Under the pieces are notes generated by a model. The model saw only the letters and a program-made list of their open reading frames with translations. It searched no databases and was not told where the DNA came from. From assembly GCF_020400825.1 (NCBI RefSeq), contig NZ_JAINVH010000026.1, positions 1 to 64,000 on the forward strand: a DNA stretch of 64,000 nt. Reading direction: 5' to 3'. Made by a program: the position numbers and the translations under genes. This DNA comes from Streptomyces sp. HPF1205 (GTDB taxonomy: Bacteria; Actinomycetota; Actinomycetes; Streptomycetales; Streptomycetaceae). Numbering within the stretch: position 1 is the first letter of the stretch; each line of letters begins with the position of its first letter. Of this stretch, positions 25,929-35,679 are shown piece after piece.

Positions 25929-26456
25929 ATGAGCACGCCCGTGACCACCTGGTACCTGGAGCAGACCGCGCCCGGCGACCTGCGCCCGGCCGCCGTACCC
26001 CCGGCGGAGGCGGGCGTGCGGATCGAGCGGGCCGAGGTGCCGTCGGCGGAGCTGGGCCGCTTCCTGTACACGGCCGTGGGCGGGGACGTGTCCTGGATCG
26101 ACCGGCTGCCGTGGCCGCCGGAGAAGTGGCAGGCGCATCTGGAGGAGCCCGGCCGCGAGCTGTGGGTGGCCTACGAGCGCGGCACCCCGGCGGGATACGC
26201 GGAGTTGGAGGGGCGCGGCGGCGGCGTGACGGAGCTCGCGTACTTCGGGCTGCTCCCGGCCTTCCGCGGCCGCGGCACAGGCGGCCACCTGCTGTCCTGC
26301 GCCGTCGCGCGGGCCTGGGACCTGGCGGCGCGGTGGCCGGGGCGGCCGCCGACCACGCGTGTGACGGTCAACACGTGCTCACTGGACGGGCCGTGGGCGC
26401 TGCGCAATTACCGGCGGCGGGGATTCCGGGTGACGCACACCACAGTGTCTCAATAA
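25929..26456 (+). CDS. GNAT-family N-acetyltransferase
   Basis: A 175-residue acetyltransferase. The acetyl-CoA loop is LLPAFRGRGTGGHLLSCAV (R/Q-x2-G-x-G/A form), after the strand VTELAYFG; the end TVNTCSLDGPWALRNYRRRGFRV is typical of GNATs that act on small molecules or N-termini. It lacks a Shine-Dalgarno site: TAGCCT at 25916-25921 ends 7 bases before ATG 25929, predicting a leaderless message. The substrate is unknown. Confidence 0.85.
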   Translation: MSTPVTTWYLEQTAPGDLRPAAVPPAEAGVRIERAEVPSAELGRFLYTAVGGDVSWIDRLPWPPEKWQAHLEEPGRELWVAYERGTPAGYAELEGRGGGVTELAYFGLLPAFRGRGTGGHLLSCAVARAWDLAARWPGRPPTTRVTVNTCSLDGPWALRNYRRRGFRVTHTTVSQ

Positions 26457-26470
26457 GCGGGATGTTCCCG

Positions 26471-26483
26471 TCCACATAGTGGA
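26471..26483. promoter_or_regulatory. small inverted repeat upstream of sulfur operon
   Basis: TCCAC-ATA-GTGGA is a perfect 5-bp inverted repeat 43 bp before the leader-peptide ATG and is a candidate operator for sulfur-responsive control. The short arms make it weak evidence. Confidence 0.35.
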
Positions 26484-26525
26484 AGCCGGTGGACTGGCCC
26501 GAGACGGCCGTGCCACGCTTTCGTC

Positions 26526-26609
26526 ATGTCGCGCACTGGAATCGCCTTGGTAGGTCGGCCGCACGTCGACTTCTGCCGCGTGTCCAGCGCCATCTGTCCG
26601 GCGAGCTGA
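26526..26609 (+). CDS. cysteine-containing leader peptide of sulfite reductase operon
   Basis: A 27-codon frame from ATG 26526 to TGA 26609, followed after 156 bases by cysI. The product carries HVDFCRVSSAIC, the arrangement (HVD..R.SSA.C) of the putative leader peptides found before sulfur genes in many actinobacteria, with two Cys codons. In mycobacteria, Cys-rich upstream peptides have been shown to mediate cysteine-responsive attenuation. Ribosome stalling at the Cys codons when cysteine is scarce would raise cysI expression. I could not find one decisive terminator or anti-SD hairpin in the following bases; a small stem (GAGCA 26697-26701 with TGCTC 26713-26717) is present. Confidence 0.75.
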   Translation: MSRTGIALVGRPHVDFCRVSSAICPAS

Positions 26610-26765
26610 CAGCGCCACCCCCCGCCACCGCCATCCCCGTCGTCGTGGATGCGCGGGAGTCCGCCCGCCGTCCGCCTGCGTGGCCCCGCCTGCCGTGAGC
26701 AGGGCGCGAGCGTGCTCCTGTGCCCGTATCGACCGTATTCGAGCCTGCCAGAAGGACGCATCGCC

Positions 26766-28490
26766 ATGGCTTCCAGCCCCGACTCCCCGACGCCCCCGGC
26801 CGGGAGCACCGCAAAGGCGGCCGCGGCCGCGCGCCGCAAGACCGGGCGCCACCGCGGCGAAGGACAGTGGGCGATGGGGCACTTCACCCCGCTCAACGGC
26901 AACGAGCAGACCAAGAAGGACGACGACGGTCTCAATGTGCGGACACGCATTGAGACGATCTACGCCCAGCGGGGCTTCGACTCCATCGACGGCGCCGACC
27001 TGCGCGGCCGGATGCGCTGGTGGGGGCTCTACACCCAGCGCCGCCCCGGGATCGACGGCGGCCGCACGGCTGTCCTGGAGCCGGAGGAGCTGGACGACAC
27101 CTTCTTCATGATGCGGGTGCGCGTCGACGGCGGCCGGCTGACGGTGGCCCAGCTGCGCGTCATCGGCGAGGTCTCCCAGGAGTTCGCCCGCGGCACCGCC
27201 GACATCACCGACCGGCAGAACATCCAGCTGCACTGGATCCGGATCGAGGACGTGCCGGAGATCTGGCGCCGGCTGGAGGCGGTGGGGCTGTCCACCACCG
27301 AGGCGTGCGGCGACGTGCCGCGCGTGATCATCGGTTCGCCGGTGGCCGGCGTCGCCGAGGACGAGATCATCGACGGCACCTCGGCGATCGAGGAGATCCA
27401 CTCCCGCTACATCGGCAGCAAGGAGTTCTCCAACCTGCCGCGCAAGTTCAAGACCGCGATCTCCGGCTCCCCGCTGCTGGACGTCGTCCACGAGATCAAC
27501 GACATCGCGTTCGTCGGCGTCGAACACCCCGAGCACGGCCCCGGTTTCGACCTGTGGGTCGGCGGCGGCCTGTCCACCAACCCGCGGCTGGGCGTGCGGC
27601 TGGGCGCGTGGGTGCCGCTGGCCGAGGTGCCCGAGGTGTGGGCGGGGGTCACCGGCATCTTCCGCGACTACGGCTACCGGCGGCTGCGGTCCCGGGCGCG
27701 GCTGAAGTTCCTCGTCGCCGACTGGGGCGCGGAGAAGTTCCGCCAGGTGCTCCAGGACGAGTACCTGCGGCGCCCCCTGGTCGACGGCCCGGCGCCCGAG
27801 CAGCCGGCCGGCGGCTGGCGGGACCACCTCGGGGTGCACCGGCAGAAGGACGGCCGCTTCTACGTGGGCTTCGCCCCGCGCGTGGGCCGCGTCGACGGCG
27901 CCACCCTGACGAAGATCGCCGAGATCACCGCCGCCCACGGCTCGGACCGGCTGCGCACCACGGTGGACCAGAAGCTGATCGCGCTCGACGTCGAGGAGGA
28001 CCGGGTCGACTCGCTGATCGCGGCCCTGGAGGCGCTGGACCTGCAGGTCAGGCCGTCGGCGTTCCGGCGCGGTGTCATGGCGTGCACCGGCATCGAGTTC
28101 TGCAAGCTGGCCATCGTGGAGACCAAGGCGCGCGGCGCGTCGCTCATCGACGAACTGGAGCGCAGGCTCCCGGAGTTCGACGTGCCGATCTCGATCAACC
28201 TCAACGGCTGCCCCAACTCCTGCGCGCGCATCCAGGTGGCGGACATCGGGCTGAAGGGCCAGCTCGTCACCGGGCCCGACGGCGAGCAGGTCGAGGGCTA
28301 CCAGGTGCACCTGGGCGGCGGCCTCGGCCTCGACTCGGGCTTCGGCCGCAAGGTGCGCGGCCTGAAGGTCACCGCCGCCGAACTGCCGGACTACGTCGAG
28401 CGGGTGCTCACCCGCTTCCAGGCCGAGCGCGCCGAGGGCGAACGGTTCGCCCAGTGGGCGGCGCGCGCCTCCGAGGAGGCGCTGTCGTGA
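26766..28490 (+). CDS. cysI: ferredoxin-dependent sulfite reductase
   Basis: A 574-residue siroheme/4Fe-4S enzyme that reduces sulfite to sulfide with six electrons. The cluster and siroheme ligands are complete: C-x5-C in ACTGIEFCK and C-x3-C in NGCPNSCAR. The repeated half-domains carry TDRQNIQLHWI and HLGVHRQKDGRFYVGF. A Tyr in WGLYTQR and a Cys in TEACGDVPR correspond to the pair cross-linked in mycobacterial SirA, which favours sulfite over nitrite. There is no flavoprotein CysJ, so ferredoxin is the expected donor. It is the first structural gene after the leader peptide; its stop overlaps the next start. Confidence 0.93.
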   Translation: MASSPDSPTPPAGSTAKAAAAARRKTGRHRGEGQWAMGHFTPLNGNEQTKKDDDGLNVRTRIETIYAQRGFDSIDGADLRGRMRWWGLYTQRRPGIDGGRTAVLEPEELDDTFFMMRVRVDGGRLTVAQLRVIGEVSQEFARGTADITDRQNIQLHWIRIEDVPEIWRRLEAVGLSTTEACGDVPRVIIGSPVAGVAEDEIIDGTSAIEEIHSRYIGSKEFSNLPRKFKTAISGSPLLDVVHEINDIAFVGVEHPEHGPGFDLWVGGGLSTNPRLGVRLGAWVPLAEVPEVWAGVTGIFRDYGYRRLRSRARLKFLVADWGAEKFRQVLQDEYLRRPLVDGPAPEQPAGGWRDHLGVHRQKDGRFYVGFAPRVGRVDGATLTKIAEITAAHGSDRLRTTVDQKLIALDVEEDRVDSLIAALEALDLQVRPSAFRRGVMACTGIEFCKLAIVETKARGASLIDELERRLPEFDVPISINLNGCPNSCARIQVADIGLKGQLVTGPDGEQVEGYQVHLGGGLGLDSGFGRKVRGLKVTAAELPDYVERVLTRFQAERAEGERFAQWAARASEEALS

Positions 28491-28666: not shown

Positions 28667-29409
28667 GCACCGCACAGCACACATCCGACGACGCACGGCG
28701 GAACCGGCCGGCCCCGCGGCACACCCCCGAGGAGCTGCGGGAGCTGGCCGAGCGGGCCGGGCGCGACCTGGAGGACGCCGACGCGCTCGACATCCTGCGC
28801 TGGGCCGCCGGCACCTTCGGCGGCCGGTTCTGCGTGACCTCCTCCATGGAGGACGCCGTCGTCGCCCACCTCGCCTCGCGCGCGATGCCCGGCGTCGACG
28901 TGGTGTTCCTCGACACCGGCTACCACTTCCCCGAGACGATCGGCACCCGCGACGCGGTGGCCGCCGTGATGGACGTCAACCTCATCACGCTCACCCCGAA
29001 GCAGTCCGTCGCCGAGCAGGACGCCCAGTACGGCCCGAAGCTGCACGACCGCGACCCCGACCTGTGCTGCGCGCTGCGCAAGGTCGCCCCGCTGGAGGAG
29101 GGCCTGCGCGGGTACGACGCCTGGGCGACCGGGCTGCGCCGCGACGAGTCCCCGACCCGCGCCGGCACCCCGGTGGTCGGCTGGGACGCCCGGCGGCAGA
29201 AGGTCAAGGTCGCCCCGATCGCCCGCTGGACGCAAGCCGACGTGGAGGCCTACGTCGCCGAGCACGGCGTGCTGACCAACCCGCTGCTGATGGACGGCTA
29301 CGCCTCCATCGGCTGCGCGCCGTGCACCCGCCGGGTGCTGGAGGGCGAGGACCCCAGGGCCGGCCGCTGGGCGGGGTCGGCCAAGACCGAGTGCGGGATC
29401 CACCAGTGA
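28663..29409 (+). CDS. cysH: APS/PAPS reductase
   Basis: A 248-residue thioredoxin-linked reductase that turns adenylylsulfate into sulfite and AMP. The nucleotide-binding part shows VTSSMEDAVVAHLA and VVFLDTGYHFPET. The 4Fe-4S cysteines that mark APS-specific enzymes are all present: CC in DLCCALRKVAP and C-x2-C in GCAPCTRRV. The C-terminal catalytic motif is ECGIH. Because cysC is also present, the cell may still make PAPS for other sulfations while reduction runs from APS. Start ATG 28663 overlaps the upstream stop. Confidence 0.94.
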   Translation: MSTAQHTSDDARRNRPAPRHTPEELRELAERAGRDLEDADALDILRWAAGTFGGRFCVTSSMEDAVVAHLASRAMPGVDVVFLDTGYHFPETIGTRDAVAAVMDVNLITLTPKQSVAEQDAQYGPKLHDRDPDLCCALRKVAPLEEGLRGYDAWATGLRRDESPTRAGTPVVGWDARRQKVKVAPIARWTQADVEAYVAEHGVLTNPLLMDGYASIGCAPCTRRVLEGEDPRAGRWAGSAKTECGIHQ

Positions 29410-29993
29410 CGGCGATCCAGCCGGCGCCCGTGCCGGCCGACCAGGAGCGGGAGACGACGACCGGGGCCACCGTATGGCTCACCGGCCTGCCGAGCGCGGG
29501 CAAGACCACCATCGCGTACGCGCTCGCCGAGCGGCTGCGGGCCGGCGGCCACCGGACCGAGGTCCTCGACGGCGACGAGATCCGCGAGTTCCTGTCCGCC
29601 GGGCTGGGCTTCTCCCGCGAGGACCGGCACACCAACGTGCAGCGGATCGGCTTCGTCGCCGAACTGCTCGCCTCGCACGGCGTGCTGGTGCTGGTCCCGG
29701 TGATCGCGCCGTACGCCGACAGCCGCGAGGCGGTACGCAAGCGCCACCAGGCCAACGGCACCGGTTACGTGGAGGTCCACGTGGCCACCCCGGTGGACGT
29801 CTGCGCGGTCCGCGACGTCAAGGGGCTGTACGCCAAGCAGGCGGCAGGCGAGCTGACCGGCCTGACCGGGGTGGACGACCCGTACGAGGTTCCGCTGCAC
29901 CCGGACTTGCGGATCGAGACGCAGGGGCACACCGTCGAGGAGTCCGCCGCGGCCGTACACGCGCTGCTGGCCGAAAGGGGTCTGACGACATGA
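29406..29993 (+). CDS. cysC: adenylylsulfate kinase
   Basis: A 195-residue kinase that phosphorylates APS to PAPS. P-loop GLPSAGKTT, substrate loop FSREDRHTNVQRIGFV, and the lid region RDVKGLYAKQAAGELTGLTGVDDPYE are as in the family. GTG 29406 overlaps the cysH stop (GTGA), and its own stop overlaps the cysD ATG, so translation is coupled through the operon. Confidence 0.94.
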   Translation: MTAIQPAPVPADQERETTTGATVWLTGLPSAGKTTIAYALAERLRAGGHRTEVLDGDEIREFLSAGLGFSREDRHTNVQRIGFVAELLASHGVLVLVPVIAPYADSREAVRKRHQANGTGYVEVHVATPVDVCAVRDVKGLYAKQAAGELTGLTGVDDPYEVPLHPDLRIETQGHTVEESAAAVHALLAERGLTT

Positions 29994-30925
29994 CGACGAC
30001 CGTCACGCACGGCGAGGCGACCGACAGCCCGTACGCGCTGACCCACCTGGACGCGCTGGAGTCCGAGGCGGTGCACATCTTCCGCGAGGTGGCGGGCGAG
30101 TTCGAGCGGCCGGTGATCCTGTTCTCCGGCGGCAAGGACTCGATCGTCATGCTGCACCTGGCGCTGAAGGCGTTCGCGCCGGCGCCGGTGCCGTTCTCGC
30201 TGCTGCACGTGGACACCGGGCACAACTTCCCCGAGGTGCTCGGGTTCCGGGACCGTACGGTGGCCGAGCACGGCTTGCGGCTGCACGTGGCGAAGGTGCA
30301 GGACTACATCGACGACGGGCGGCTGCGCGAGCGGCCGGACGGCACCCGCAACCCGCTGCAGACCGTGCCGCTGACCGACGCGATCCGCGAGCACCGCTTC
30401 GACGCCGTCTTCGGCGGCGGCCGGCGCGACGAGGAGAAGGCCCGGGCCAAGGAGCGGGTGTTCAGCCTGCGCGACGAGTTCTCGCAGTGGGACCCGCGCC
30501 GGCAGCGCCCCGAGCTGTGGCAGCTCTACAACGGCCGGCACGCGCCGGGTGAGCACGTGCGGGTCTTCCCGCTGTCGAACTGGACCGAGCTGGACGTGTG
30601 GCAGTACATCGCCCGGGAGTCGATCGCGCTGCCGGAGATCTACTTCGCGCACGAGCGCGAGGTGTTCAACCGCGGCGGCATGTGGCTGACCGCGGGCGAG
30701 TGGGGCGGGGCCAGGGACGGCGAGCCGGTGGAGACGCGGATGGTGCGCTACCGCACGGTCGGCGACATGTCCTGCACCGGCGCGGTCGACTCCGACGCCA
30801 CCACGCTCGACGCGGTGATCGCCGAGATCGCCGCCTCCCGGCTCACCGAGCGGGGCGCGACCCGGGCCGACGACAAGCTGTCGGAGGCCGCGATGGAGGA
30901 CCGCAAGCGCGAGGGGTACTTCTAA
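29990..30925 (+). CDS. cysD: sulfate adenylyltransferase small subunit
   Basis: A 311-residue ATP-PPase subunit. The PP-loop is FSGGKDSIVML; LLHVDTGHNFPEVL, FGGGRRDEEKARAKER and PLSNWTELDVWQYI follow in family order, and it ends in the typical MEDRKREGYF. With CysN it makes APS from sulfate and ATP, the first step of assimilation, driven by GTP hydrolysis. The stop is one base pair short of overlapping the cysN start region (2-base gap). Confidence 0.95.
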   Translation: MTTTVTHGEATDSPYALTHLDALESEAVHIFREVAGEFERPVILFSGGKDSIVMLHLALKAFAPAPVPFSLLHVDTGHNFPEVLGFRDRTVAEHGLRLHVAKVQDYIDDGRLRERPDGTRNPLQTVPLTDAIREHRFDAVFGGGRRDEEKARAKERVFSLRDEFSQWDPRRQRPELWQLYNGRHAPGEHVRVFPLSNWTELDVWQYIARESIALPEIYFAHEREVFNRGGMWLTAGEWGGARDGEPVETRMVRYRTVGDMSCTGAVDSDATTLDAVIAEIAASRLTERGATRADDKLSEAAMEDRKREGYF

Positions 30926-30927
30926 CC

Positions 30928-32286
30928 ATGACGAGCACCACCGGGCACGGCCCGCTGACCGCCGAGCAGTTGTCGGCGACCACCCTGCTGCGCTTCGCCA
31001 CCGCCGGTTCGGTGGACGACGGCAAGTCCACCCTGGTCGGCCGGCTGCTGCACGATTCCAAGTCGGTGCTGGCCGACCAGTTGGAGGCGGTCGAGCGGGC
31101 CTCGCTCAACCGCGGCCAGGAGGCTCCCGACCTGGCGCTGCTCACGGACGGTCTGCGGGCCGAGCGCGAGCAGGGCATCACCATCGACGTGGCCTACCGC
31201 TACTTCGCCACTCCCCGGCGCCGGTTCATCCTGGCCGACACGCCGGGCCACGTGCAGTACACCCGCAACATGGTGACCGGCGCCTCGACCGCCCAGCTCG
31301 CCGTGGTGCTGGTGGACGCGCGCAACGGCGTGGTCGAGCAGACCCGCAGGCACGCCGCGGTCGCCGCGCTGCTGCGGGTGCCGCACGTGGTGCTGGCGGT
31401 CAACAAGATGGACCTGGTGGGCTACGCGGAGCCGGTGTTCGCCGCCATCGCCGAGGAGTTCACCTCGTACGCGGCCTCGCTGGGCGTCCCCGACGTGACC
31501 GCGATCCCGATCTCGGCGCTGGCCGGCGACAACGTGGTGGAGCCGTCCGCGCACATGGACTGGTACGGCGGCCCGACCGTGCTGGAGCACCTGGAGACCG
31601 TGCCGGTCAGCCACGACCTGACCGGATGCCCGGCGCGCTTCCCCGTGCAGTACGTGATCCGTCCGCAGACCCCCGAGTACCCGGACTACCGCGGTTACGC
31701 CGGGCAGGTGGCCTCCGGGATGCTGCGGGTCGGCGACCAGGTGACCGTCCTCCCGTCCGGCAGGACGACCACCATCTCGGGCATCGACGCGCTGGGCCGC
31801 GGCGTGGACACCGCGTGGGCGCCGCAGTCGGTGACGGTGCTGCTCGCCGACGACCTCGACGTCTCGCGCGGCGACCTGATCGCGCCCACCGCGACCGCGC
31901 CGGCCGTGACCCAGGACATCACCGCCACCGTGTGCCACCTGCACGAGCGGCCGCTGCGCATCGGCGAGCGGGTCCTGCTCAAGCACGCGACCCGCACGGT
32001 GAAGGCCCTGGTCAAGGCCATTCCCTACCGGATCGACCTCTCCCACGGCCTCGCGCACGAGAACGAGCCGGCCGCCCTGGAGGTCAACGACATCGGCGCG
32101 GTGGTGCTGCGCACGGCCGAGCCGCTGCCCATGGACTCCTACGCCGTCTCGCGGCTGACCGGGTCGTTCCTGCTGATCGACCCGGCGGACGGCACCACGC
32201 TCACCGCGGGCATGGCGGGCGAGCCCTTCGCCGCCGCCCCGGACGGCGAGGCCGCCGAGGCCGCCGACGAGGGATGGGACTTCTGA
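30928..32286 (+). CDS. cysN: sulfate adenylyltransferase large subunit (GTPase)
   Basis: A 452-residue EF-Tu-like GTPase. G1 GSVDDGKSTL, G2/switch region EREQGITIDVAYRYF, G3 ADTPGHVQY and G4 NKMD are intact; beta-barrel domains 2 and 3 follow. There is no fused CysC domain, consistent with the separate cysC gene. It partners CysD. The C-terminus is acidic (EAAEAADEGWDF). Confidence 0.95.
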   Translation: MTSTTGHGPLTAEQLSATTLLRFATAGSVDDGKSTLVGRLLHDSKSVLADQLEAVERASLNRGQEAPDLALLTDGLRAEREQGITIDVAYRYFATPRRRFILADTPGHVQYTRNMVTGASTAQLAVVLVDARNGVVEQTRRHAAVAALLRVPHVVLAVNKMDLVGYAEPVFAAIAEEFTSYAASLGVPDVTAIPISALAGDNVVEPSAHMDWYGGPTVLEHLETVPVSHDLTGCPARFPVQYVIRPQTPEYPDYRGYAGQVASGMLRVGDQVTVLPSGRTTTISGIDALGRGVDTAWAPQSVTVLLADDLDVSRGDLIAPTATAPAVTQDITATVCHLHERPLRIGERVLLKHATRTVKALVKAIPYRIDLSHGLAHENEPAALEVNDIGAVVLRTAEPLPMDSYAVSRLTGSFLLIDPADGTTLTAGMAGEPFAAAPDGEAAEAADEGWDF

Positions 32287-32630: not shown

Positions 32631-33761
32631 GTGCCCGCCCAGACCCGACCCGCGCCGCGGGACCGCCGCCGCAGGCTCCTCGCCGCGGCGGCCGCCCTGC
32701 CGATGCTCGCCGGCGCCCTGGTCGCCTGCGGCTACGGCTCGCAGAGAGCGTCGGACGGCCCGGCCGCCGTGGTGCCCCCGGCGAACGCCAAGAAGCTCTC
32801 GGCCGACCAGGTGAGGATCGGCTACTTCCCGAACCTGACCCACGCGACCGCCCTGGTGGGCCTCAGGGAGGGCTTCTTCCAGCGGGAGCTCGGCGGGACG
32901 CGGATCAAGCCGTACACCTTCGACGCGGGCCCGGCCGAGATCGAGGCACTCAACGCCGGCTCGATCGACATCGGCTGGATCGGCCCCTCCCCCGCGATCA
33001 ACGGCTACACCAAGTCGGGCGGCACCGATCTGCGGATCATCTCGGGCTCCGCCTCGGGCGGCGTCAAGCTGGTGGTGGACCCGAAGAAGATCAAGACCGT
33101 GGACGACGTCAAGGGCAAGAAGATCGCCACCCCGCAACTGGGCAACACCCAGGACGTGGCACTGCTCCACTGGATCGCCTCCAAGGGCTGGAAGGTCGAC
33201 CCGCAGAGCGGCAAGGGCGACGTGTCGGTGGTCCGTACCGACAACAGGATCACCCCGGACGCCTTCAGGAACGGCTCCGTCGACGGAGCCTGGGTGCCGG
33301 AGCCGACCGCCTCGAAGCTGGTCGCCGAGGGCGGGAAGGTGCTGCTGGACGAGAGCGCGCTGTGGCCGGGCGGGAAGTTCGTGATCACCAATGTGATCGT
33401 GTCGCAGAAGTTCCTCGCCAAGCACCCGGACGTGGTCGAGGCGGTGCTGCGCGGCTCGGTGCGGACCAACGCGTGGATCGGGGCGAACTCCGCCAGGGCC
33501 GAGGCGGACGCCAACGCCGCCTTGAAGGAGCTGACCCAGAAGGCGCTTCCGGCCGACGTGATCGACCCGGCCTGGCGGTCCCTGCGCATGCTCGACGACC
33601 CACTGGCCGCCACCGCGCGGAGCGAGGCGCTGCACGCGGCCTCGGCGGGGCTGCTCGCCTCGCCCAGGCTGGACGGGATCTACGACCTCACGCTGCTGAA
33701 CAAGGTCCTGCGGGAAGAGGGCGGACCCACCGTGGACGCGGCCGGGCTGGGCGCGCAGTAG
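32631..33761 (+). CDS. ssuA: sulfonate-type ABC transporter substrate-binding lipoprotein
   Basis: A 376-residue lipoprotein; GTG 32631 follows GAGAGGA. Signal with RRRR and lipobox LVAC at Cys33. The periplasmic-binding fold is of the SsuA/TauA/NMT1 type: VRIGYFPNLTHATALVGLREGFF, YTFDAGPAEIEALNAGSIDIGWIGPSPAING, ATPQLGNTQDVALLHWI. It would deliver an organosulfonate or similar anion to the importer encoded next. Location in the cys operon supports a sulfur substrate; the gene symbol is by family and context. Confidence 0.82.
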   Translation: MPAQTRPAPRDRRRRLLAAAAALPMLAGALVACGYGSQRASDGPAAVVPPANAKKLSADQVRIGYFPNLTHATALVGLREGFFQRELGGTRIKPYTFDAGPAEIEALNAGSIDIGWIGPSPAINGYTKSGGTDLRIISGSASGGVKLVVDPKKIKTVDDVKGKKIATPQLGNTQDVALLHWIASKGWKVDPQSGKGDVSVVRTDNRITPDAFRNGSVDGAWVPEPTASKLVAEGGKVLLDESALWPGGKFVITNVIVSQKFLAKHPDVVEAVLRGSVRTNAWIGANSARAEADANAALKELTQKALPADVIDPAWRSLRMLDDPLAATARSEALHAASAGLLASPRLDGIYDLTLLNKVLREEGGPTVDAAGLGAQ

Positions 33762-33833
33762 CGGCCGTCCGGCCGGCGGGAGCGGCCGCCCCGCACAGCT
33801 GACCGTATCGAAGGACCCCAGGAGGTGACACCG

Positions 33834-34628
33834 ATGACCGACACCCTCACCGGTGCCGAGGCACGCCCGGCGCGGCAGTCCGCCTACGCGGCCCGGCTGG
33901 ACCGCGTGTCCAAGGCGTTCGGCGGGCCCGGCGCGCGGCAGCCCGTGCTCGACGGCATCACGCTCGACGTGCGGCCGGGTGAGTTCGTGTGCCTGCTGGG
34001 CGCCTCGGGCTGCGGCAAGTCGACGCTGCTGAACCTGGTCGCGGGTCTGGACAAGCCGTCCGCCGGGACCATCACGACCCCCGGCGGACGCCCGGCGCTG
34101 ATGTTCCAGGAGCACGCCCTGTTCCCGTGGCTGACCGCGGGCAAGAACATCGAACTGGTCCTGCGGCTGCGCGGGGTGCCGCGCGAGCAGCGCCGCCCGG
34201 AGGCCGAGCGGCTGCTGTCGCTGGTCCGGCTCGGCGGGGCGTACGGCAAGCGGGTGCACGAACTGTCCGGCGGCATGCGCCAGCGGGTCGCGCTGGCCCG
34301 GGCCCTGGCGCAGGACAGCCGGCTGCTGCTGATGGACGAGCCGTTCGCGGCGCTGGACGCGATCACCCGCGACGTGCTGCACGACGAGCTGACCCGTATC
34401 TGGTCCGAGACGGGCCTGTCCGTCCTGTTCGTCACGCACAACGTACGGGAGGCGGCCCGGCTCGCCCAGCGCATCGTGCTGCTGTCCTCGCGGCCCGGGC
34501 GGATCCGCCGCGAGTGGACGGTCGGCATCCCGCAGCCGCGCCGTATCGAGGACGCGGCCGTCGCGGACCTGTCCGTGGAGATCACCGAAGAACTGCGTGG
34601 GGAGATCCGGCGTCATGGCCAGCACTGA
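33834..34628 (+). CDS. ssuB: sulfonate-type ABC transporter ATPase
   Basis: A 264-residue ATPase; AGGAGGTGA precedes ATG 33834, so an in-frame GTG at 33825 inside that site is rejected. Walker A GASGCGKST, Q-loop MFQEHALFPWL, signature LSGGMRQRVALARAL, Walker B LLLMDEPFAALD and switch His in FVTHNVREAARLAQR are complete. It energises the permease encoded next, whose start it overlaps by 14 bases. Confidence 0.88.
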   Translation: MTDTLTGAEARPARQSAYAARLDRVSKAFGGPGARQPVLDGITLDVRPGEFVCLLGASGCGKSTLLNLVAGLDKPSAGTITTPGGRPALMFQEHALFPWLTAGKNIELVLRLRGVPREQRRPEAERLLSLVRLGGAYGKRVHELSGGMRQRVALARALAQDSRLLLMDEPFAALDAITRDVLHDELTRIWSETGLSVLFVTHNVREAARLAQRIVLLSSRPGRIRREWTVGIPQPRRIEDAAVADLSVEITEELRGEIRRHGQH

Positions 34629-35679
34629 GACCGGAACGGGAACGGGCACGGAGACCGGCGCGGAGACCGGCCCGCAGGACGCGGCCGCCGCGTCCCCCGA
34701 GGAGGGCGGCTCCCAGGACGCGGGCGGCCAGGGCGCCGGCGGTCAGGGCACCGGCGGTCAGGGCACCGGCGGTCAGGGCACCGGCGGTGAGGAGGGCCCG
34801 GCCGGGCGCCGGCGGTCGGCCGCGGACGACCTGTCCGGCCTGGAGGCGGGCCTGGACGCGCTGGAGACCGTCACCGTGCGGCGGGCGCCGCTCGGGCAGT
34901 TGCTGCTGAAGAAGGTGCTGCCGCCGGTCACCGCGGCGGTCGTCGTGCTGGTGGCCTGGCAGCTGGCGGTGTGGGCGGGCGCGGACCCGACGAAGCTGCC
35001 CAGCCCGCACGCGGTCGGCCGGGCGTTCGCCGAACGGTGGCGGGCCGGCGACCTGTTCTCCATCATCTGGACCAGCGTGGAGCGCGGCATGCTGGGGTTC
35101 CTGGCCGCGCTGGCCCTCGGCACCCCGCTGGGCCTGCTGGTGGCGCGGGTGCCGTTCGTACGGGCGGCGATCGGCCCGATCCTGTCCGGGCTGCAGTCGC
35201 TGCCGTCGGTGGCGTGGGTGCCTGCCGCGGTGATCTGGCTGGGCCTGAGCGACTCGGCCATGTACGCGGTGATCCTGCTCGGCGCGGTGCCCTCGATCGC
35301 CAACGGCCTGGTCTCGGGCGTCGACCAGGTCCCGCCGCTGTACCTGCGGGCGGGCCGGACGATCGGGGCCACCGGGCTGCGCGGCGCCTGGTACGTCCTG
35401 CTGCCCGCCGCGCTGCCCGGTTACGTGGCGGGGCTCAAGCAGGGCTGGGCGTTCTCCTGGCGCTCCCTGATGGCCGCCGAGCTGATCGCCTCCTCCCCCG
35501 ACCTCGGCGTGGGCCTCGGCCGCTACCTGGAGAACATGCGGGAGGGCTCGGACATGGCCGGGGTCTTCCTCGGCATCCTGCTGATCCTGTTCGTCGGCAT
35601 CGCCATCGACCAGATCGTCTTCAGCCCGCTGGAGCGCTGGGTGCTGCGCAGCCGCGGGCTGTCCGCGAGGAGCCAGTGA
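34615..35679 (+). CDS. ssuC: sulfonate-type ABC transporter permease
   Basis: A 354-residue permease with six membrane segments and the EAA-like loop GATGLRGAWYVLLPAALPGYVAGLKQGW. Unusually, the first about 100 residues are a hydrophilic tail with four GGQGT-type repeats, absent from typical SsuC proteins of about 260 residues. Start ATG 34615 overlaps the ATPase gene. The set of binding protein, ATPase and single permease is a complete importer. Confidence 0.87.
   Translation: MASTETGTGTGTETGAETGPQDAAAASPEEGGSQDAGGQGAGGQGTGGQGTGGQGTGGEEGPAGRRRSAADDLSGLEAGLDALETVTVRRAPLGQLLLKKVLPPVTAAVVVLVAWQLAVWAGADPTKLPSPHAVGRAFAERWRAGDLFSIIWTSVERGMLGFLAALALGTPLGLLVARVPFVRAAIGPILSGLQSLPSVAWVPAAVIWLGLSDSAMYAVILLGAVPSIANGLVSGVDQVPPLYLRAGRTIGATGLRGAWYVLLPAALPGYVAGLKQGWAFSWRSLMAAELIASSPDLGVGLGRYLENMREGSDMAGVFLGILLILFVGIAIDQIVFSPLERWVLRSRGLSARSQ
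34723..34782 (+). repeat. 15-bp tandem repeat in permease 5' end
   Basis: Four in-frame copies of GGCGGTCAGGGCACC (first copy with two changes) at 34723-34737, 34738-34752, 34753-34767 and 34768-34782. They encode a Gly-Gln-Gly linker before the membrane domain. Confidence 0.92.

Follow-up and report, generated by a model that had tools for sequence, protein, structure and literature searches.

A probable cysteine leader peptide with a near-invariant UGU codon in front of the sulfite reductase operon of Streptomyces sp. HPF1205

Cysteine-rich upstream peptides that attenuate sulfur operons are known from mycobacteria, a precedent that the original prediction had invoked for this locus and that is stated in PMC9031893. 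Cysteine attenuation was proposed by Shell et al. from profiling of M. smegmatis (PMC4633059), and polycysteine leaderless short ORFs were tested by Canestrari et al. in 2020, according to PMC9031893, PMC9094748 and PMC13236596. Earlier, Seliverstov et al. (2005) predicted cys leaders without terminators in Mycobacterium and Propionibacterium, and suggested Rho (PMC1262725). For Streptomyces, the leader-peptide passages of a reannotation of S. lividans give eight leader peptides, none of them assigned to cysteine (PMC8079986). Neither a UGU rule nor an experiment on the streptomycete leader was found in the literature searched, a search whose coverage excludes most subscription journals.

The window analyzed here is a stretch of 64,000 nucleotides from Streptomyces sp. 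HPF1205. A frame of 27 codons followed by a stop lies on its forward strand at 26526..26609 (translation MSRTGIALVGRPHVDFCRVSSAICPAS), and 156 bases separate it from the cysI ATG at 26766. The original prediction had located a leader frame there, and its coordinates are right; translation and family match agree with them. The peptide matches the NCBIfam model NF042934 with 35.6 bits and an E-value of 4.7e-9 (hmmscan, cut-off 27), which puts the frame far beyond chance. This kind of leader is already an NCBIfam family (cis_reg_atten), recorded simply as ‘putative leader peptide’, and given that NCBI now has such a model, the remark that the frame is too short for standard gene calling holds only in part. 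Two Cys-rich families, NF042936 (Ms4527A) and NF042933 (Ms5788A), gave the leader 24.1 and 13.2 bits in the hmmscan search of NCBIfam, below their cut-off of 45. Pfam gave no match to the leader peptide, and Rfam gave nothing at gathering score within the window.

The first structural gene downstream is cysI, encoding sulfite reductase (26766..28490, forward strand, ATG start; Pfam NIR_SIR and NIR_SIR_ferr). Its Shine-Dalgarno sequence, AGAAGGA at 26750..26756 on the forward strand, was read from the sequence, and GAAGGAC is conserved in the locus alignments. The rest of the assimilatory operon occupies 28690..32286 in the same direction, with approximate gene starts, and comprises by Pfam cysH (PAPS_reduct), cysC (APS_kinase), cysD (PAPS_reduct domain) and cysN (GTP_EFTU). 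Importer genes follow on the forward strand at 32631..35679, namely an NMT1-like substrate-binding protein, an ABC ATPase and a permease by Pfam; the importer is probably of the sulfonate type. An in-frame ATG at 26649 would add 39 codons to cysI, and gene callers may pick that start; it was rejected, the cysI frame being open back to the leader stop in merely 49 of the 80 cysI loci compared below.

The reading we favor, to which we give a probability of about 0.47 as a whole, is that a ribosome translating the leader would pause at its UGU codon 24 when Cys-tRNA is short, helped by a conserved nascent chain, and that the pause would block Rho. The sequences themselves show the frame, its conservation, the UGU rule, a C-rich stretch as a group property, the lack of an intrinsic terminator in the scan, and the presence of rho and of one tRNA-Cys gene; from these we infer translation, pause, cysteine response and Rho output.

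The upstream regions of cysI genes were compared, a check proposed with the original prediction. A scan with the CysI protein had at least 586 relatives, of which the best 80 were kept; the 80 loci are hence close relatives (76 named Streptomyces, three Actinacidiphila and one ‘[Kitasatospora] papulosa’). A leader of the same design stands 5' of cysI in 79 of the 80 loci, which is every testable one, since locus L090 has only 116 bases upstream and is too short to test. The 79 leaders together with the window's own are the 80 cysI leaders counted in what follows. Their peptide is nearly constant, MSxxGIALVSRRHVDLGRMSSAICPA. The prediction had pointed to Cys codons 17 and 24 alike, and both are present in the window, codon 17 as UGC (26574..26576, forward strand) and codon 24 as UGU (26595..26597, forward strand), but they do not carry equal weight: position 17 is Gly in 67 of the 80 cysI leaders and Cys in 10, whereas position 24 is Cys in all 80. 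Of the two Cys codons, Cys24 alone is conserved.

Compared without gaps, the 80 cysI loci show conservation of promoter and leader but not of the spacer sequence, and the distance from the leader stop to the start codon after the Shine-Dalgarno sequence ranges from 112 to 240 bases. Fourfold sites differ by 0.150 in cysI leaders versus 0.356 in cysI genes. A hairpin inside the leader (26536-26587) was examined in cysI-type leaders only; it is mostly invariant and therefore uninformative, with one pair that changes on both sides (TA 40, CG 22) but fails to pair in 14/80 distinct leaders. This hairpin may account for the extra wobble conservation of the cysI leaders.

The family extends well beyond cysI. 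At an E-value of 0.01, NF042934 has matches in all 35 genomes of the genus, with 3 to 15 in each. It was found in 121/121 sampled genomes of the bacterial family (17 genera), and in 199/296 sampled genomes of the class (80/115 genera); copies per genome are lower bounds in these two samplings, where part of the candidates was scored. In these samplings none of 14 control genomes had an NF042934 match; in a search at an E-value of 1 six of them gave matches, none over the cut-off. In the source genome three matches exceed the cut-off, and they stand before cysI, a rhodanese-type gene and a cysteine synthase-like gene. The idea that the HVD..R.SSA.C version is widespread is thus borne out across genus, family and class.

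The genes downstream of the leaders are mostly tied to sulfur. For 176 such genes, chosen by codon-position GC, the largest clusters are rhodanese (39), luciferase-like monooxygenase (38), cysI (24) and cysM-like (17), followed by ABC permease (11), FMN reductase (7), acyl-CoA-dehydrogenase-like (4), sulfatase (3) and PAPS reductase (3); among the smaller remaining clusters, SBP_bac_5 (3), POR (2) and SDF (2) have no obvious sulfur link. Pfam names come from one representative of each of ten clusters, and the names cysI and cysM-like were read from sequence. Taken together, the NF042934 match, the comparison of cysI loci and the wider genome sampling support the prediction of a cysteine leader peptide before the sulfite reductase operon, and 26526-26609 is very probably a translated cysteine/sulfur leader. 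Homology, gene context and the mycobacterial precedent (PMC9031893) suggest that it regulates in a cysteine-dependent manner.

Loci L158, L171, L173, L187, L237, L244 and L278 carry leaders on both strands, and there are more such pairs in the genus listing; each leader apparently heads one of two divergently transcribed operons. Leaders with the same core also precede pyruvate/oxoacid:ferredoxin oxidoreductase-like genes (L301 by Pfam, L302 by membership in the same cluster) and a dicarboxylate-type symporter (L286), where links to Fe-S and cystine are possible.

The most marked property of the family is at the level of the codon. Cys24 is encoded by TGT in 80/80 cysI leaders; the cysI genes behind them use TGC 417 times and TGT six times. 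Because the cysI context is itself conserved, leaders beyond cysI were collected so that the codon could be judged apart from it. In the genus, a residue-pattern scan of 118 loci yielded 109 matches, 97 of them distinct and 86 of these not of the cysI-peptide type, with TGT in 97/97. A looser pattern found leaders in 108 of the 118 loci, with 116 matches and TGT in 116/116; the ten loci without a match include L004 to L008, which are weak matches of the source genome. The family set gave 28 leaders in 28/29 loci, all with TGT, and the class set gave 65 leaders in 62/64 loci, with TGT in 64 and TGC in one; both sets include cysI leaders of other genera. The single TGC exception is L291 of the class set, and the gene next to its leader looks like a sulfite reductase. 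In L142, L149 and L156, which are also among the ten genus loci without a match, a core with its Cys is visible, but it fails the start or tail limits of the pattern and stands outside the codon count.

Removing identical cores from the 179 leaders leaves 157 distinct DNA cores (88 distinct peptides), all outside the 80 cysI loci, with TGT in 156 and TGC in one. The divergence from genomic codon use at this position is 3.71 bits, while that of the other residue sets listed is at most 0.56 bits, except for Ala -11 (1.84), Ser -3 (1.35) and Ser -4 (0.76), positions being counted from the core Cys. In the genomic background TGT accounts for 62 of 855 Cys codons (7.3%), taken from 267 genes selected by a codon-position rule in the window and in 400 kb of two genomes of the genus. 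The other Cys codons in the same leaders are TGC in 109 cases and TGT in 18 (poly-Cys leaders excluded; Fisher p 5e-58, uncorrected for relatedness). At position -7, Cys is TGC in 15/15 of the 86 non-cysI genus leaders and UGC in 46/48 among the 157 distinct leaders.

The codon was never a selection criterion, since both the HMM and the pattern act on residues. The leaders are homologous and the counts are therefore not independent, yet the synonymous sites beside the codon differ widely and the UGU codon does not: the 86 non-cysI genus leaders have GAC in 59 and GAT in 27 for the Asp, and five different Arg codons at -13. In the set of 157, the codons of R, D, V and L vary at the wobble base (e.g., GAC 110, GAT 47) while the residues they encode stay, which indicates selection at the level of the peptide. 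The near-constant UGU indicates selection at the level of the codon as well, and suggests that UGU24 is a likely sensing codon for sulfur or cysteine supply.

Weaker codon biases were seen for Ser -3 (AGC in 81/94), Ala -11 (GCA or GCG in 30/32) and Asp -9 (GAT in 47/157, compared with 5.5% in the genome), and these may matter too. Frameshifting at the UGU was rejected, as the 80 cysI leaders have no alternative frame of common length.

The residues in front of the codon are conserved as a block. In the window, the core from R11 to C24 lies at 26556..26597 on the forward strand (RPHVDFCRVSSAIC). Over the 157 distinct leaders the conserved block opens at -16 (Leu) and closes with the Cys; the residues past it are variable, and 112/157 leaders have 1 to 4 of them. 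The pattern required the residue sets at -11 (H/A-type) and -10 (V/I), Asp -9, Arg -6 and Cys 0, which are hence not evidence, and the genus scan also required a set of small residues near -2. At the free positions, Arg -13 is found in 157/157, Leu -8 in 155/157, Val -5 in 128/157 and Leu -16 in 123/155. The block would suit a nascent chain that occupies the upper exit tunnel while the Cys codon stands in the A or P site; a drop in conservation past Cys is what such a stall would be expected to leave.

TnaC and SpeFL are ligand-sensing arrest peptides, and the leader could be another, with a chain that binds cysteine or a sulfur compound and a UGU kept for geometry or timing rather than as a gauge of charging. 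The peptide is indeed conserved beyond what a run of codons would call for, as the free positions -13 and -8 show, and the 67 of 80 cysI leaders with Gly17 keep one Cys codon, with at most one further at the C-terminal end. An operon that makes cysteine should, however, respond to shortage, so that a ligand-induced stall would need to reduce expression, contrary to what happens at tna; we regard this account as unlikely.

The choice of codon in attenuators is normally explained by isoacceptors that selectively lose their charge (Elf and Ehrenberg, PMC1183508). The genome has one GCA-type tRNA by a loose pattern, which ARAGORN calls tRNA-Cys (gca). A genome search with its sequence revealed no second copy, and a loose pattern scan revealed no tRNA-Cys with another anticodon; a tRNA-Cys with anticodon ACA is not known to occur. 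Given the single tRNA-Cys copy found, selective charging of isoacceptors, which needs two tRNAs, does not account for UGU: with a single tRNA, why UGU rather than UGC is used has no isoacceptor explanation, and the rule calls for wobble decoding, tRNA modification or pause geometry.

The anticodon loop of the tRNA-Cys in the source genome is U-GCA-A-A-A, and both miaA and miaB are present. An A36-A37-A38 pattern is modified by MiaA and MiaB to thiolated ms2i6A. It is conceivable, if improbable, that across the class (presumably Actinomycetes) the UGU, wobble-read by a single tRNA-Cys, senses sulfur-dependent modification of that tRNA as well as its charging. Sulfur shortage would then leave A37 under-thiolated and slow UGU more than UGC, and the sulfur operons would be opened before charging fails.

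Upstream of the leader, two hexamers are conserved over the 80 cysI loci, a -35-like TGGACT at 26490..26495 (forward strand, -36 to -31 relative to the leader ATG) and a -10-like CACGCT at 26514..26519 (forward strand, 18 bases after the -35 and six bases before the ATG). A strict consensus promoter scan of 26440-26800 found no promoter at the leader. Judged by the conserved hexamers, transcription is predicted to begin at the leader ATG or directly beside it, so that the transcript is probably leaderless, as are 21% of primary starts in S. coelicolor (PMC4895711). Further 5', a block gtctC.c..t.CG.GAc at 26447-26463 (-79 to -63 from the leader ATG) is conserved over the 80 cysI loci; it contains an inverted repeat GTCTC-N-GAGAC in many loci, degenerate in the window, and sits 5' of the operator described next.

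A candidate NdgR-like operator, GTCCACATAGTGGAA, lies on the forward strand at 26470..26484 and matches the published 15-base NdgR motif (PMC4340878) at 13 positions. The best match to this motif within 100 bases 5' of the leader stands at the same offset, -56, in 76/80 cysI loci, and scores over the 80 loci range from 11 to 15 for a motif length of 15, in a comparison made without a shuffled control. NdgR binds upstream of S. coelicolor cysI (PMC4340878), and the site upstream suggests that the cysteine genes are probably under promoter control in addition. This bears against the favored reading, since NdgR acts at the cysI promoter (PMC4340878) and the cysteine control could act there. In its extreme form, NdgR would do all the controlling at the promoter and the leader would merely sustain translation initiation or operon coupling, without sensing; that would leave unexplained both the UGU rule and the recurrence of one core in front of many unrelated sulfur genes, and appears very improbable.

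Past the leader, the predicted lack of an obvious terminator hairpin was confirmed, as a terminator scan of 26440-26800 returned no terminator-like site. Classical terminator attenuation is rejected, given that no hairpin followed by a U tract lies between leader and cysI. Directly after the leader stop there is instead a C-rich, G-poor, rut-like stretch of about 30 bases (26610..26639, forward strand): the 20-base segments at 26610 and 26620 hold 14 C and three G each, and that at 26640 holds four C and ten G.

Across the group, the C/G ratio changes at the leader stop: over the preceding 90 bases it is 1.0 to 1.3, and over the following 60 it exceeds 2 for cysI leaders and is 1.5 to 1.8 for other genus leaders. 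The C minus G value over the 60 bases after the stop is 0.256 for the 80 cysI leaders, 0.193 for the 86 other genus leaders and 0.128 for the 65 class leaders, versus 0.027 for controls (Mann-Whitney p 2e-20, 5e-13 and 8e-7, respectively, uncorrected for relatedness). The controls are 69 ordinary same-strand gaps from two genomes of the genus, in which promoters and intra-operon gaps are mixed, and they suit the class set poorly. While 47 of 80 cysI spacers lie above the 95th percentile of the controls, the window's own value, 0.233 over 60 bases, is reached by five of the 69 control gaps. C-rich, G-poor RNA after the leader stop is thus a property of the group, less clear in the window.

Two findings weigh against the favored reading. 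In the other genus leaders the 60 bases richest in C lie a median of 48.5 bases past the stop, compared with eight in the cysI leaders. And in those 13 of 151 genus and class leaders whose Cys has at least nine codons behind it, the stop among them, the C-rich stretch tracks the stop and not the Cys. A composition that is kept on average without conservation of sequence is as expected of a Rho-loading stretch. The genome has a rho gene over the cut-off, and U-lacking 3' ends with a stem have been ascribed to Rho in S. lividans (PMC6742748). Rho as the output nevertheless remains a tentative proposal, with odds somewhat short of even, our estimate having been lowered because the window's own spacer is not exceptional against the controls. 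A second Rho-like frame, G000:C110:64939-66024 (L321), scored 463 bits, under the rho cut-off of 509; the main rho is on C120.

Translational attenuation would instead have a fold of the mRNA mask the cysI ribosome-binding site, and a ribosome stalled at the Cys codon open that fold. Mycobacteria, in the same class of bacteria, have related leaders before like downstream genes, the M. smegmatis cases are termed ‘translation attenuation’ (PMC13236596), and 36/80 cysI loci have the sequence of a small hairpin, GTCC-CGAA-GGAC, at the Shine-Dalgarno site. Folding tests, which are weak, gave no excess over shuffles: pairing of the Shine-Dalgarno 7-mer averages 0.594 over the 80 cysI loci versus 0.624 with shuffled spacers, its pairing with the leader exceeds 0.5 in six of 78 loci (two set aside), and duplexes between the leader tail and the ribosome site show no clear gain in strength over those made by shuffled tails (p 0.056). 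Moreover, the spacer is conserved neither in sequence nor in length. Masking of the cysI ribosome site was therefore set aside as a candidate, and we consider it somewhat unlikely as the mechanism.

Other RNA structures fared no better. Neither the spacer fold (mean z -0.69, 5/80 below -2) nor the leader fold (mean z -0.53, 5/80 below -2) is unusually stable. In 46/80 cysI spacers, an element of the type GCAGGTCAGAG follows a GC-rich hairpin that lacks a U tract; in most of them it lies some 33 bases from cysI. That hairpin was rejected for weak covariation, with four two-sided pairs in 36 aligned loci versus 2.1 in shuffled alignments and five in a slid control; RNAalifold on its alignment gave four pairs, none changed on both sides.

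Under the favored reading of a pause at UGU24 that keeps Rho off, transcription would begin at the leader ATG or right beside it, and the 27-codon leader would be translated by a ribosome. Residues R11 to I23 would lie in the upper exit tunnel as UGU24 enters the A site, to be wobble-read by the sole tRNA-Cys found (anticodon GCA). With plentiful Cys-tRNA, the ribosome would pass the UGU and leave at the stop four codons on, exposing C-rich, G-poor RNA on which Rho would load, ending transcription before cysI. With Cys-tRNA short, the ribosome would be held at UGU24 and Rho kept off, so that cysI-H-C-D-N would be transcribed. Given the size of the ribosome footprint, a ribosome with UGU24 in the A site should reach only about as far as the leader stop; stalled there, it would cover no more of the C-rich stretch than its edge, and so shield less than a stalled TnaC ribosome does.

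The results suggest that one synonymous codon is kept almost without exception class-wide, against strong GC pressure and though there is apparently one tRNA-Cys. Such invariance points to decoding itself as the sensor, be it through wobble, tRNA modification or a nascent-chain pause. In practical terms, the HMM combined with the UGU is a marker for sulfur-controlled operons in actinomycetes. What is new here is the codon invariance at one Cys, the lost weight of the other Cys, and the rut-like stretch after the stop as a property of the group.

In comparison with the mycobacterial polycysteine leaders, the window's leader shares a predicted leaderless start, a Cys codon near the end and a sulfur operon downstream. 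Those leaders have contiguous Cys codons, whereas in the window Cys17 and Cys24 are apart and only one is conserved; one slow codon with a sensitizing nascent chain could replace the mycobacterial runs. Class members of NF042934 with Cys runs (e.g., L228) carry UGU at the core position too. Masking of the ribosome site, as in the polycysteine leaders, left no signal at the cysI leaders in the weak folding tests.

The cys leaders of Seliverstov et al. (PMC1262725) likewise are leader peptides without terminators, accompanied by polypyrimidine motifs that are not conserved, but they have runs of Cys codons near the stop, and the passages on cysteine in that work name no Streptomyces. The alpha-proteobacterial cysS leader uORFC-8-2 (PMC8632094) shares the presence of Cys codons in a short upstream frame, and differs in having two tandem Cys codons, a dominance of UGC and an intrinsic terminator.

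With the other members of NF042934, which in this study stand mostly 5' of sulfur genes, the window's leader has the same core. The model describes residues only and takes in neither the UGU rule nor the base composition past the leader stop; nothing excludes membership.

TnaC, in the tna leader of E. coli, is a conserved arrest peptide that stalls at the stop codon with free tryptophan; behind it lies C-rich RNA on which Rho acts. The window's leader resembles it in being a conserved peptide followed by C-rich RNA. It differs in that its conserved end is a sense codon and that shortage, rather than abundance, should be the signal.
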